A stretch of 15,505 nt of DNA, from the NCBI GenBank assembly GCA_046759145.1, contig JBHIBR010000004.1:1-15505 (forward strand). Direction: 5' to 3'. The DNA comes from JBHIBR01 sp046759145 [NCBI: Nitrospinota bacterium]. GTDB taxonomy: Bacteria > UBA8248. The notes below the pieces were generated by a model. That model searched no databases and was not told where the DNA came from. It was given only the letters and a program-made list of their open reading frames with translations. The position numbers and the translations under genes were made by a program. Positions within the stretch are counted from its first letter, which is position 1. Every line of letters starts with the position of its first letter. Shown here in pieces: positions 7,975-12,687 of this stretch.

Positions 7975-8003
7975 TTGCACTGGAAAGAGCAAGGGAATAA
8001 AAT
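7975..8003 (+). promoter_or_regulatory. sigma70-like promoter of the csoR-ATPase operon
   Basis: TTGCAC (7975-7980) and TAAAAT (7998-8003) are separated by exactly 17 nt. The -10 matches the consensus at five of six positions, the -35 at its TTG. The transcription start would fall near 8010, inside the operator at 8000-8028, which fits repression by occlusion. It leaves about 50 nt of leader before the TTG start at 8063. Confidence 0.6.
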
Positions 8004-8028
8004 TACCCTTAGGGGGTTAGGGTATTTT
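8000..8028. promoter_or_regulatory. CsoR-type operator
   Basis: Imperfect inverted repeat with arms AAAtTACCCTtA and TtAGGGTAtTTT around a central run of five G (8012-8016); the core arms TACCCT (8004-8009) and AGGGTA (8019-8024) are perfect. A G-tract flanked by TACCC/GGGTA-like arms is the established operator form for CsoR-family repressors, for example the copZA operator of Bacillus subtilis. It overlaps the -10 and the predicted start site and directly precedes the csoR gene, implying autoregulation of the whole operon. Confidence 0.7.
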
Positions 8029-8062: not shown

Positions 8063-8350
8063 TTGGTCAAGGCCGACGAATTCATCGGAGAAGAGAGGAA
8101 GTCCCAGATCCTCAACCGTCTCGCCCGCATCGAGGGTCAGGTGCGCGGCCTCCAGCGCATGGTGGAGGAGGGGCGCTATTGCGTCGAAATCCTCGGCCAG
8201 CTCTCGGCCGTCCACGAGGCTCTCCGGGGCGTGGGAAAGGAAGTGATGCGGAATTACCTGGAAGGTTGCGTCACCCGCGCCATCCGGGAGGGCCGTGGGG
8301 GGGAGATCTACGACGAGGTGATGGACATCCTCCACAAGTACGCCCGGTAG
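8063..8350 (+). CDS. csoR: CsoR/RcnR-family (DUF156) metal- or persulfide-sensing repressor
   Basis: This is a 95-aa all-helical repressor of the DUF156 family, with the signature R-I-E-G-Q-V-R-G-L-Q-R-M at 22-33 and R-Y-C at 38-40. Copper-sensing CsoR proteins use Cys, His, Cys. Here the two cysteines are present (C40, C69) but the histidine position four residues before the second Cys is Tyr65 (N-Y-L-E-G-C), as confirmed in the codons. Persulfide sensors (CstR) also keep two Cys and lack this His, so the inducer is uncertain. TTG 8063-8065 is preferred because GGAGGAGG (8050-8057) sits 5 nt before it; upstream TTG 8027 and GTG 8030 are in frame, but TTG 8027 overlaps the operator and both lie within about 20 nt of the predicted transcript start. 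The stop is 12 nt from the ATPase ATG. Confidence 0.92.
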   Translation: MVKADEFIGEERKSQILNRLARIEGQVRGLQRMVEEGRYCVEILGQLSAVHEALRGVGKEVMRNYLEGCVTRAIREGRGGEIYDEVMDILHKYAR

Positions 8351-8362
8351 GGGGTGAAGAGG

Positions 8363-10831
8363 ATGGAACGCGTGCAGTTCAAGATCGGCGGGATGCAGTG
8401 CTCCTTCTGCGTGGAGAGCATCCACAAGGCTTACGCGCGCATGGACGGGGTGCTCGATGTGTCCGTGAGCCTCTCCCACGAGGAGGCGCTGGTCCAGTAC
8501 GACCCGGAGAAGGTGACTCCCACCGAGCTCAAGGACACCCTCAGCAGCATGGGCTACACCGTGCGGGACCCCCGGAAGGTCCACTCCTTTGAAGAGGAGG
8601 AGGCGGAGGTTCGCCGGCACCGAAACCTGCTGATATGGGCCGCAGGGTTCATGCTCGTTTCGCTGGGCCTCATGAGCGCCATGTGGCTGGGCGTCCGGCA
8701 GCCGTGGTTCAAGTGGGCGATGCTGGGCCTGGGCCTGGGCATGGTCTTCGGGGTGGGCTGGTACATCTTGATGATGGCGTGGGCGGCCCTCCGCCGGGGC
8801 ATCCTGAACCAGCACGTGCTCATGGAGTTCGGCGCCTTCGGCGGCCTGGCAGGTGGTGCGGTCGGGTTCTTCACGCAGCCCTGGCCCACGGGCGACTTCC
8901 TGGGGGCTGCGGTCTTCATCACCGCGTACCACATCCTCTCGGCCTACGTCTCCACGGTGGTCCGTACCAGGAGCTCCCAGGCCATCAAGAAACTGATGGA
9001 CCTCCAGCCCGCCATGGCCCGGGTCATCCGGAACGGCAGGGAAGAAGAGGTGCCCGTCGAGGAGGTCCGTCCGGGCGAGCTGGTGCGGATCCGTCCCGGG
9101 GAGAGCGTCCCGGTGGATGGCGAGGTGGCGGAAGGGCTCTCCGGTGTGGACCAGAGCCTGGTGACGGGCGAGTCCATCCCCGTCGAAAAAACCGTCGGGT
9201 ATGAGATCATCGGCGGCTCGGTGAACCAGACCGGCACGCTGCTGGTGCGGGTCACCAAGGTGGGGGAGGAGAGCTTCCTCCAGCAGGTGGCGCGCTCCAT
9301 CCAGGAGGCCCGGGCGTTGAAGCCGGGCATCATGCAACTGGTGGAGCATGTGTTGAAATGGTTCGTCCCGGGGGTCCTCATCGCGGCGGGGGCGGCATTC
9401 ACCCTCTGGACCCTGGGGTCATGGCTGGTGACGGGAGAGCCCAACGTCAGCCGGGCCATCTTCGCCACCCTGGCGGCCCTGGTGATGGGGTATCCCTGCG
9501 CCCTGGGGATGGCTACCCCCCTGGCCATGATCCGCGGCGGGGGCATCGCCGCCCAGAAGGGCGTCCTGATGCGCTCCGGCGAGGCCTTCCAGGTGTCCAA
9601 AGATGTGCGGAAGGTGGTGCTGGATAAGACCGGCACCCTCACCCGGGGCAAGCCGCAGGTGGTAGAGCTGGTGCCGGCGGGCGCTTACCAGGAAGGCCAC
9701 GTCCTGGCGCTTGCGGCGGCCGCCGAGAGTTCCTCAGAACATCCCCTGGCCCGGGCCATCGTCGAGAGGGCGGAGGGGGCGAGCTTCCCCGAGCCCCAGG
9801 ATTTCCAGGCCCTCCCGGGGCGGGGCATCAGGGCCACGGTCGAAAATAAGCCAGTGCTGGTGGGAAGCCCCCGATTCCTCGCCGAGGAAGGAATCGACCT
9901 CGCCTCGGTTCAGGAGCGTCTCGAGGCGATGGAGGGGCAGGGCCGCACAGTGGTGGCCGTGGCCGAGGCCGGCCGGCTGGCGGGGCTGATCGCCATCGCG
10001 GACACCCTGAAGGCCGATGCCGCCGAAGCGGTTGCCCGGATGAGCGACGCCGGCCTGGAGCCGGTCATGGTGACCGGCGACAACTGGCGCACCGCAAGGG
10101 CGGTGGCCTCCCAGGTGGGCATCACCGAGGTCATGGCCGAGGTGCTCCCCGACCAGAAGGCGGAGAAGGTCCGGGAGCTTCAGGGGCGGGGATACCGGGT
10201 GGCCATGGTGGGGGACGGCATCAACGACGCGCCCGCCCTCATGCAGGCGGACGTGGGGATCGCCATCGGGGCTGGCACCGACATTGCCATCGAGTCTGCT
10301 GACGTCGTCCTGGTCGGCGACCGGCTGGGTGGCGTGGTGGACGCCTACTACATTGGGAAGAGCAGCTTCCGCAAGACCCTCCAGAACGTCACGCTTGCCT
10401 TCGCCTTCAACGGCATCGGCGTCCCGGCGGCGATCACGGGGCTCGTTCACCCGGTCATGGCCATGGTCGCTATGGCGGCCAGCGTCACCACGGTCTTGCT
10501 GAACTCCTTCGGCGGAAAGCTCATCCCCCGGCGCGGGGGTGCCCCTCACCAAAGAGTCGAGGCTGAAGCGGCCCCGACTCCAGCAGCCGCTCCTGCGGGG
10601 GCCGAGGTGACGGCCTCCGATGGGGCGCGCACCTTCGCCTTCACCGTCGAGAGCATGCACTGACTCGGGTGCCTCTCGGCAATCGAGCGGGCGCTCGATA
10701 CGATCCCGGGCGTGGAGAGAGTGGAAGGTAACGTGAAGACAAAGCGCCTGGAAGTCCAGATCAGCGAGGAGGCTGCCACAGAAGACGTGGTCCGCATGAT
10801 GGAGCAGATCGGTTTTCCGGTGGAGGGCTGA
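8363..10831 (+). CDS. P1B-type metal ATPase with N- and C-terminal HMA domains, in-frame UGA at residue 767 (candidate selenoprotein)
   Basis: This heavy-metal P-type ATPase has an N-terminal HMA domain with M-Q-C-S-F-C (C13, C16), eight predicted membrane helices, actuator T-G-E at 268-270, phosphorylation motif D-K-T-G-T at 421-425, S-E-H-P-L with H460, and G-D-G-I-N-D at 617-622. The transport motif is Y-P-C (377-379), not C-P-C; the later signatures are F-N and M-A-A-S-V where copper pumps have Y-N and M-x-x-S-S. The frame meets UGA at 10661-10663, giving a conventional product of 766 aa, then continues for 55 codons as a clean second HMA domain ending at TGA 10829-10831. The UGA is exactly the first Cys of M-x-C-x-x-C. 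ATG 8363 follows TAGGGGGTGA by 5 nt; GTG 8354 is an alternative start. The catalytic ATPase is certain; the read-through is a supported inference. Confidence 0.93.
10661..10663 (+). other. in-frame UGA, candidate selenocysteine codon (U-x-x-C)
   Basis: The UGA sits in F-T-V-E-S-M-H-[UGA]-L-G-C-L-S-A-I-E-R-A-L, replacing the first metal-binding Cys of an HMA motif. The downstream small HMA protein has I-S-C-Q-G-C at the same place. The 55 codons after the UGA keep the HMA pattern to the end, and the true end lies 3 nt before the next gene. Replacement of Cys by Sec is the classic signature of bacterial selenoproteins. A single TGC-to-TGA change or base error is the alternative. Confidence 0.65.
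10682..10699 (+). promoter_or_regulatory. candidate bacterial SECIS hairpin
   Basis: ATCGAGC (10682-10688) and GCTCGAT (10693-10699) form a perfect 7-bp stem with the tetraloop GGGC, beginning 18 nt after the UGA; the loop starts 25 nt after it. Known bacterial SECIS elements place the apical loop roughly 16-37 nt downstream of UGA and need a G among the first loop bases, and both hold. CGGG (10666-10669) could pair with CCCG (10705-10708) as an outer stem. Palindromes are common in GC-rich coding DNA, so this supports but does not prove recoding. Confidence 0.55.
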
Positions 10832-10834
10832 GCG

Positions 10835-11485
10835 GTGGGGGACCTCGTCCGCTTCGTGGGGATTCCTGTGGGATTCGGCCTCCTTGGCTTCGTTGAGCCC
10901 TGCTCCATGGGGGCGAATTTCGTTTTTCTCGCCTACCTCCGGGAGCGGCCCGCCCCCGAGCGGCTGCGCCACGCTCTCACCTTCGTCCTGAGCCGCGCCC
11001 TCTTTCTCGGGCTCCTCGGAGGCGGGGTTGCGTGGCTGGGCCAGTCCTTTGCGGCGGGAGCCTTCCTCTACAGCGCGGGACTCGGGGCGCTCTACATCTT
11101 CCTGGGCCTGATGGGGCTGGGGATCTACTTTGGCCTCTTTATTTTCCCCATGGGCGACCCGGGGGCTTGGCTCCAGAAGAAGGCGGGCCTCTCCCTCCCG
11201 ATGGGCGTGGCCTTCGGCCTGAGCGCTCCCATATGCGCCGCCCCCCTCTTCCTTGCCCTGCTGGGCCAAGCGGGTTTGGCGGGGGTGGCCAATGGCTTTA
11301 TGTCCCTCGCCTTGTTCGGATTGGCCCTCTCGGCGCCACTGCTCGCCATCGCGGCATCGCGGAGGGCCTCAGACCTGCTGTCCCGCGTGGGGAGCCATTC
11401 GGCGCGGATGCCGCTTTTCGCGGGGGTCTTCCTGCTGCTCGTCGGCCTGTGGAGCGTCGTCGTGGGATGGAGGGGTTTCGCGTGA
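10835..11485 (+). CDS. CcdA/DsbD-like membrane thiol-redox protein
   Basis: This 216-aa protein has about six membrane helices of the DsbD gamma/CcdA (TauE/SafE-like) superfamily. It carries one cysteine near the first helix (V-E-P-C-S-M-G) and one about 110 residues later at the pseudo-repeat position (S-A-P-I-C-A-A-P-L), the pair that in CcdA and DsbD passes electrons from cytosolic thioredoxin across the membrane. The start is GTG at 10835, with GGAGG at 10822-10826 about 8 nt before it. The gap to the read-through stop of the ATPase is 3 nt, against 171 nt to the UGA, so gene packing favours an ATPase gene that truly ends at 10831. In this setting it could reduce the HMA thiol or selenol pairs, or a periplasmic partner; that role is inference. 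Confidence 0.85.
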   Translation: MGDLVRFVGIPVGFGLLGFVEPCSMGANFVFLAYLRERPAPERLRHALTFVLSRALFLGLLGGGVAWLGQSFAAGAFLYSAGLGALYIFLGLMGLGIYFGLFIFPMGDPGAWLQKKAGLSLPMGVAFGLSAPICAAPLFLALLGQAGLAGVANGFMSLALFGLALSAPLLAIAASRRASDLLSRVGSHSARMPLFAGVFLLLVGLWSVVVGWRGFA

Positions 11486-11519: not shown

Positions 11520-11942
11520 ATGTTGCACCCCGTCTGGGCTATGATTGCCATGGCCTTGAGCGTGAGCGCGGTCCTGGCGAACTCCTTCGGCGGGAGGCTG
11601 CCGGGCGCCGGCCCCCGGGCCGGAGCGAAGGTTCCCGCTCCGTTGGAGCCCCAGTGGGAATGGGGGCTCAAGAGAATTGGGACGCCCGGGGTGCCCGGTG
11701 GCACCGGCCGCCGGGTCAAGCGAGAGGAGGAGAAGCCCGTGGAACTCGAGCTGCGCGTGCCATCCATTAGTTGCCAGGGCTGCGTGGATAGCCTCCGCAA
11801 GGCCCTGACCAGCGAGGGCGCCGAGGCGGTCTCGGGCGACCCCGAGAAGAAGACCATCCGGGTCCGCTTCGACGAGAGGCACCTGGACGAGGGGAGGATC
11901 CGCGAGGCCATCCTGACGGCGGGCCACGTGGTGGGGGAGTGA
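11520..11942 (+). CDS. single-helix HMA-domain protein resembling the C-terminal tail of the P-type ATPase
   Basis: This is a 140-aa protein. Residues 3-25 match the last membrane helix of the upstream ATPase (H-P-V-W-A-M-I-A-M-A-L-S-V against H-P-V-M-A-M-V-A-M-A-A-S-V, both followed by N-S-F-G-G). A Pro/Gly-rich linker follows, then an HMA domain with I-S-C-Q-G-C from about residue 74. It looks like a membrane-tethered metal chaperone derived from a duplicated ATPase 3' end. The likeness continues a few codons upstream of the ATG (T-T-G) to an in-frame TGA at 11508-11510. ATG 11520 lacks a spaced Shine-Dalgarno. A well-placed ATG at 11507 (after GGGGAGGGGA) is in another frame, and loss of one G in the run at 11516-11519 would join them, so a frameshift or base error at the start is possible. 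Confidence 0.75.
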   Translation: MLHPVWAMIAMALSVSAVLANSFGGRLPGAGPRAGAKVPAPLEPQWEWGLKRIGTPGVPGGTGRRVKREEEKPVELELRVPSISCQGCVDSLRKALTSEGAEAVSGDPEKKTIRVRFDERHLDEGRIREAILTAGHVVGE

Positions 11943-12093: not shown

Positions 12094-12687
12094 ATGGCAG
12101 AGCTTTCTCGAAAGGACCGCAGGCGGCTTGAGCGCGAGAGGACCCGGGAGGAGCGGTTGCGAGAGCACGCGAGGAGGGTCCGGGGCCGGAGACTCAAGAG
12201 GGTTCTCACCTACGGCCTTTACGCCCTCGTGGCGGCCGCCGTGGTCTTCGGTCTCTACAGGTGGTTCACCCGGGAGCTGCCGGGGGAGTTCGTCACGAGC
12301 CTGGGCAACCAGCACATCTCCGACCGGGAAGGTCGAGGGGTGAGCTACAACACAGACCCCCCTACCTCCGGGCCCCACGTGCCCAACATCGCCCGCTGGG
12401 GGGTCCACAAGGAGCCCATCCCGAAGGCTCTCCAGGTCCACAACCTCGAGGACGGGGGTGTCCTGGTGCAGTACCGCTGCCGCGACTGCCCCGACCTCAT
12501 CGCCAGAATAGAAGCCATCGTCCGCCGCTACCCCGATCGCGTCATCGCCGCCCCCTACCCCGGGATGAAGCCTCTCATCGCCCTCACCGCCTGGGGGCGG
12601 ATCGACCGGCTCGATGCCTTCGACGAGGCGCGCATTGTGCGCTTCATCGAGGCCTTCCGGGGTATCGACCACCACCCGCGCCGCTAG
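12094..12687 (+). CDS. DUF3105 domain protein, membrane anchored
   Basis: This is a 197-aa protein. Residues 1-36 are a highly basic, Arg/Glu-rich cytosolic helix, residues 38-57 a single membrane helix, and the rest an extracytoplasmic DUF3105 domain, recognised by Y-N-T-D-P-P-T-S-G-P-H at 85-95, V-H-N-L-E-D-G-G at 115-122 and the terminal A-W-G motif at 167-169. The domain has no established function. It carries a C-x-x-C pair (Y-R-C-R-D-C, C129 and C132) and conserved histidines (H74, H95, H105, H116) that could bind metal or act in redox chemistry. ATG 12094 is chosen for GGAGGAG 8 nt upstream. It lies 151 nt after the metal operon on the same strand, compatible with a shared theme but not proof of one. 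Confidence 0.88.
   Translation: MAELSRKDRRRLERERTREERLREHARRVRGRRLKRVLTYGLYALVAAAVVFGLYRWFTRELPGEFVTSLGNQHISDREGRGVSYNTDPPTSGPHVPNIARWGVHKEPIPKALQVHNLEDGGVLVQYRCRDCPDLIARIEAIVRRYPDRVIAAPYPGMKPLIALTAWGRIDRLDAFDEARIVRFIEAFRGIDHHPRR

Follow-up and report, generated by a model that had tools for sequence, protein, structure and literature searches.

The window analysed here, a 15,505-nucleotide stretch of contig JBHIBR010000004.1, encodes on its forward strand a P1B-type metal-export ATPase whose frame contains a UGA codon (10661-10663), and we infer from sequence comparison that this codon very probably encodes selenocysteine, as residue 767 of a candidate selenoprotein. As far as the UGA (8363-10663), the gene product has an N-terminal HMA domain with a CSFC motif, scores 562 bits against TIGR01525 (cut-off 346) and matches PF00122, PF00702 and PF00403. 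Its transmembrane metal-site motif, encoded by the GYPC codons at 9488-9499 with YPC replacing CPC, is invariant in 22 of the 22 rows of our alignment A2, which were chosen from those found. A preliminary description of this DNA had placed the UGA where a CxxC motif in a C-terminal HMA domain of the ATPase has its first Cys, and we could confirm this placement: the codon lies in frame, in the context MH-UGA-LGC. It is followed by a C-terminal extension (10664-10831) made of 55 codons (10664-10828) and a final TGA stop (10829-10831).

The same description held that these 55 codons complete an HMA domain, which agrees with two kinds of data. First, residues 760-818 are the best Pfam HMA stretch in the read-through protein. 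Second, the predicted model has the strand and helix order of an HMA domain (strands 755-761, 784-790 and 795-801, helices 768-778 and 806-815), with pLDDT values of 69-91 in this block; residue 767 sits immediately before the first tail helix, and the linker ahead of the tail (residues 719-753) is modelled with pLDDT below 50. HMA proteins often stand as genes of their own, and one could imagine that the pump ends at the UGA while the HMA domain is made as a separate protein from a downstream start. There is hardly any likelihood of this, since no ATG, GTG or TTG occurs in frame from the UGA to the second Cys codon in the window, the first in-frame start past the UGA would drop the CxxC, and in the predicted model the HMA fold includes the strand ahead of the UGA.

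By searching the loci of relatives with the tail (tblastn), we identified two more uncultured species that have TGA at this codon, L123/L027 in genome G001 and L122/L041 in genome G008, both being Tectomicrobia-type genomes of the same phylum. The window tail is 62% identical to that of L123 and 65% identical to that of L122. The dN/dS ratios of the tails were 0.24 (window-L123), 0.22 (window-L122) and 0.32 (L123-L122), and those of the pump bodies 0.33, 0.39 and 0.18, respectively. These ratios (0.22-0.32 for the tail) indicate that purifying selection acts on the UGA tail across the three species, which represent two lineages, L122 and L123 being close relatives; the tail tree gives the UGA tails a single origin. 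In the relatives with this domain the codon specifies Cys: the alignment of homologues, suggested earlier as a check, has either UGA or Cys at this place, with TGC or TGT in 20 of the 20 distinct Cys-tailed genes and HCxGC in 15 of the 20. These genes were picked by the CxxC pattern, their 22 rows reducing to 20 genes as L001, L142 and L099 are one gene. The small HMA frame downstream in the window (11520-11942) also has Cys at the UGA position (SISCQGC), as had been noticed before.

These comparisons bear directly on whether the UGA is a nonsense mutation or a sequencing error, with a pump that stops there and a dead tail behind it. Loss of the tail would be tolerable, since tail-less pumps such as L002, L144, L127 and L016 occur in the family. 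This explanation is nevertheless extremely improbable: the same UGA is present in three assemblies, and the tails have diverged to 62-65% identity, at dN/dS ratios of 0.22-0.32, without acquiring more stops or frameshifts. Frame decay was looked for and none was seen; the UGA is kept in the three species and the tail appears to be selected. Together with the Cys codons of relatives and the selenocysteine genes described below, these data support the selenocysteine reading, and no refuting condition set out earlier that we examined went against it.

In the phylum of G001, an ATPase match at E 1e-100 was found in 13 of 18 genomes and the UGA tail only in G001 and G008; a G010 row that contains TGA and TAG apparently overruns the stop of its gene and enters a Cys HMA gene. 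Among ATPase matches at E <= 1e-180, no UGA tail was found either in 95 genomes of Methylomirabilota, the phylum of G003 (14 matched genomes, best 10 candidates per genome scored), or in 400 genomes drawn from the phylum of G004 (14 matched genomes, best 2 candidates per genome scored). The sole TGA row in these two scans, L150, was rejected, as a non-HMA frame continues after its TGA. A 79% identical ATPase copy in G002 ends with its contig at residue 461, before the tail. A scan of viral contigs with the tail as query found no relative. On plasmids, 314 records matched the ATPase at E <= 1e-100, and the best of them, at 62.5%, was tail-less among the eight rows inspected (H1-H8). YPC-type relatives of the ATPase also occur on haloarchaeal plasmids and, judging from A2, YPC-type P1B ATPases with an N-terminal HMA domain (CSFC) and often a C-terminal one (HCxGC) are spread over bacteria and archaea.

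A bacterial SECIS element is a stem-loop directly behind the UGA with a G at the start of its loop. The window has a SECIS-like hairpin with these features at 10682-10699 (ATCGAGC-GGGC-GCTCGAT), a perfect 7-bp stem whose GGGC loop starts 25 nt past the UGA, and it is identical in the three UGA genes. It lies within the longest identical nucleotide run (21 nt) in their codon alignment. We scanned for hairpins having a G in the first two loop positions, with the loop 14-37 nt behind the codon, and obtained a score of 18 in all three UGA tails. As a positive control, the UGA sites of selD scored 14.5-25 (6/6 at 14.5 or more); of 15 UGA sites that matched a pattern in six selD loci, six were taken as selD by their G-x-U-x-x-K context. 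At this threshold, which is the lowest selD score and was chosen after the scores were seen, one of 20 Cys tails (L013) and two of the nine non-selD UGA sites in the selD loci also passed. Synonymous shuffling equalled the hairpin score in 115, 247 and 348 of 5000 shuffles of the three UGA genes, and other codons of these genes reached 18 in 49/772, 24/706 and 54/824 cases. The 54 nt past the UGA had a folding energy that was only mildly low (68, 50 and 344 of 1000 synonymous shuffles being equally low), so we lean on conservation. The hairpin is invariant across the three UGA genes and there is hence no covariation, and Rfam gave nothing above its gathering scores anywhere in the window. For six stand-alone UGA HMA genes, shuffled with the codon usage of the window gene, the results were mixed (0, 28, 41, 450, 1154 and 1636 of 5000). 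The hairpin is thus modest evidence: it backs the selenocysteine case and could not bear it alone.

Genes for selenocysteine insertion are present in the relatives. Of 18 genomes in the phylum of G001, 14 had selA above its cut-off, G001 and G008 among them, and 14 had selB above its cut-off, including G008, in which selB follows selA at a distance of 0.9 kb on one contig. No selB match was found in G001, an incomplete or fragmented genome whose selA contig stops 230 nt past selA. In 7 of 7 genomes, including the two with UGA tails, tRNA-Sec scored above the cut-off, at 51.4-75.5 bits, and in G001 it shares one contig with the ATPase; control genomes also passed this cut-off in 5 of 14 cases, so the higher scores weigh more. 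selD was above the cut-off in 11 of 13 genomes, with one internal UGA each, and below it in G008 (incomplete or fragmented) and G006. On the side of the window itself, selB was above the cut-off in all 13 tested genomes of Methylomirabilota, the window-like phylum. The closest IlvD relatives of the window all belong there: G037 (71%), G049 (69%), G111 (62%) and G117 (73%, over partial length only). Two of them, G037 and G049, carry selB, and the selD of G037 contains a UGA. The best IlvD matches in G001, G002 and G007-G023 were 47-52% identical to that of the window; within Methylomirabilota, there was no match in G003 or G087, and the one in G091 was only 42% identical.

The frame is open beyond the UGA, which would also fit some other reading of the codon, either near-cognate read-through or a genetic code that assigns an amino acid to UGA. 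We regard this as very unlikely. UGA serves otherwise as an ordinary stop in the window, as had been stated (for instance at 10829 and 11483), and it terminates both the tail and the next gene; moreover, the residue replaced is the first Cys of a CxxC, and selenocysteine genes occur in the relatives.

Selenocysteine aside, the body and the tail of the pump differ in ancestry. Residues 1-724 of the window ATPase are 82% identical to L128 and 81% to L129, both Cys-tailed Methylomirabilota pumps, and 60-62% identical to the bodies of the G001 and G008 pumps. The window tail, at 62-65%, is nearest to those of G001 and G008, and so is the CcdA-like protein encoded next to it (73-74%). Along the alignment with L128, identity drops from 115/126 (residues 600-725) to 2/12, 11/23 and 6/33, and along the same stretches with L122 it is 87/126, then 10/14, 16/23 and 18/31. 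In the body tree (40 rows) the window groups with L128 and L129 (98/95), apart from L122 and L123; in the tail tree (22 rows, including the window frame at 11520) the three UGA tails cluster together (100/98) and come out as a single group in all bootstrap trees (100%). Rows truncated at a contig end or having no GYPC pattern were left out of the trees (L009 was kept), as were L095, L001, L094, L092, L096, L097, L090 and L020, and L006, whose TM7 motif was missed by the pattern. The change falls in the flexible linker, at residues about 725-753 (10535-10622), as judged from the shift in identity and the pLDDT of the linker. The tail looks like a module: it seems to have been swapped between pumps, giving a Methylomirabilota-type body and, from near residue 725, a Tectomicrobia-type tail with the adjoining CcdA-like gene.

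Different nearest relatives for body and tail could also arise from a chimeric contig, in which a Methylomirabilota body was wrongly joined to Tectomicrobia-type DNA; such an artefact would concern the swap and not the UGA. We consider it unlikely, given that the frame is unbroken across the change and that the flank past the ccdA-like gene is window-like again, its IlvD being nearest to Methylomirabilota, so a chimera would need two false joints.

Upstream of the pump we noted by eye a sigma-70-like promoter at 7975-8003 (TTGCAC at 7975-7980, a 17-nt spacer and TAAAAT at 7998-8003). It is followed at 8004-8024 by a palindrome read from the sequence (TACCCT...AGGGTA), which resembles CsoR-type operators. 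A CsoR-family metal-sensing repressor is encoded at 8063-8350 (PF02583, E 2.5e-29; its start codon is uncertain, the open frame beginning at 8027); its best NCBIfam match is RicR at 72.6 bits, below the cut-off of 175. As regulator near the pump, the window has a CsoR-like protein and G008 a MerR-like one, neither of which reaches an NCBIfam cut-off.

Downstream, it had been remarked that the next gene starts 3 nt past the read-through stop with its Shine-Dalgarno sequence inside the extension, and both features are there: a GTG frame opens at 10835, and a Shine-Dalgarno-like GGAGGG read from the sequence lies at 10822-10827. This gene (10835-11485) encodes a membrane protein resembling CcdA or DsbD_TM, with EPC and PIC cysteines. 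The window protein by itself had no Pfam or PDB match, and its predicted model (pLDDT 65) had no structural match at E 0.001 or better; the putative CcdA assignment comes from relatives, one of which (L022) matches PF02683, and from a mixed profile (A1) that matches CcdA in PDB 5vkv at E 1.6e-29. In G001 the CcdA-like gene also starts 3 nt past the tail stop. Tight coupling of tail and CcdA-like gene is not general, because in G008 the latter is about 3 kb away from the tail. The open frame at 11520-11942 is homologous to the 3' end of family ATPases (last TM helix and Cys HMA domain; tblastn over residues 1-140 of 140 in L132, L131, L129, L128 and L130), and looks like a leftover of another pump gene or a small HMA protein. 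Further along the window, a DUF3105 protein is encoded at 12094-12687, with relatives near pumps in L116 (56%) and L122 (34%). In G001 the CcdA-like gene is followed by one for a DUF7482 protein (L123 13458-14012; Pfam match), and by eye a similar frame lies at the same place in G008 (L122 5808-6536) and the long ATPase frames of L147 and L148 finish in DUF7482-like sequence.

Selenocysteine-containing P1B ATPases have been predicted before. In the excerpts of PMC5029168 on which we draw, they have the motif UxxC, fall under TIGR01525 (example ABB15669.1) and comprise 32 proteins from 25 organisms; excerpts of PMC13188914, PMC9312934, PMC2398784 and PMC7435645 include them as well. The window pump likewise belongs to TIGR01525 (562 bits) and would contain UxxC (U-L-G-C), and compared with these pumps, by their descriptions in those excerpts, its selenocysteine would lie in the C-terminal HMA domain of a YPC-type pump. 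Two NCBIfam families, NF041115 (UxxU) and NF045683 (a MerT/CopZ fusion-like selenoprotein), share with the window tail the HMA fold and a selenocysteine in the metal-binding motif; they are a separate small protein or a MerT fusion, whereas the window HMA domain is the tail of an ATPase. The window tail scored 35.4 bits against NF041115 (cut-off 95) and 16.5 bits against NF045683 (cut-off 375); it is no member of NF041115, its motif being UxxC instead of UxxU and the whole read-through protein reaching 79.9 bits against the same 95. HMA frames with a UGA in the metal motif were also seen elsewhere: among many HMA matches on the 50.5-kb contig 48 of G003 (L116, L117 and L118), three had one (one UxxU, two CxxU), and others were a fourth in G003 on contig 10 (L121, CxxU), a UxxU frame in G002 (L119) and a UxxC frame in G004 near its ATPase (L120).

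With CopA-type P1B copper ATPases the window pump shares the domain order and the catalytic motifs, and its best PDB sequence matches are copper ATPases, for example 7xuk and 3j09. Unlike CopA-type pumps, the window family has YPC instead of CPC in TM6 (22 of 22 A2 rows), FNG in TM7 and a C-terminal HMA domain; one YPC copA-like gene is mentioned in the excerpt of PMC11082258. Our literature searches found no paper on selenocysteine with an HMA domain, or with a heavy metal-associated domain and a P-type ATPase. As far as these searches show, selenocysteine P1B pumps are a known prediction, the published ones being known to us by description, and the C-terminal, apparently exchangeable form is new.

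We propose that SelB-dependent decoding of the UGA, aided by the hairpin, would yield a P1B metal-export ATPase of 822 residues. P1B ATPases have both termini in the cytoplasm. The C-terminal HMA domain, attached by a flexible linker, would use the selenolate-thiolate pair of H-U-x-G-C to bind a soft metal and may either hand the metal to the pump or relieve an inhibitory contact. Selenium may raise the affinity for soft metals or permit a reversible Se-S bond, whose formation would switch the tail off. That the selenocysteine acts as a metal ligand is, in our judgement, somewhat the likelier outcome; that it acts as a redox switch is possible but doubtful. Where selenocysteine is not inserted, termination should leave a 766-residue pump, like the natural tail-less members whose existence leads us to expect that termination at the UGA still gives a pump. 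The CcdA-like gene might in addition be translated better upon read-through, its ribosome-binding site being within the extension. Since CcdA proteins move electrons through the membrane to its outer side, it is not evident how such a protein would act directly on a tail in the cytoplasm. On a bolder and rather improbable reading, the selenocysteine HMA tail and the ccdA-like gene would form a selenium-gated, mobile regulatory cassette grafted onto another pump body: selenium supply would choose between a tail-less pump and a selenol-sensor pump, and read-through would couple the membrane redox carrier to the selenoprotein form.

The candidate is most likely a selenoprotein, in a known kind of system. 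Ordinary gene calling stops this ATPase at the UGA, and the HMA domain is lost. Selenoproteins of known function are mostly redox enzymes; if selenocysteine is inserted here, it would serve a transport ATPase as a metal ligand. The UGA tail of the window and the Cys tail of L128, whose body is 82% identical, would then be a natural pair for finding what a pump gains in metal handling from selenium. A genuine swap would mean that the UGA module, hairpin included, has passed from one pump to another among selenocysteine-decoding bacteria.
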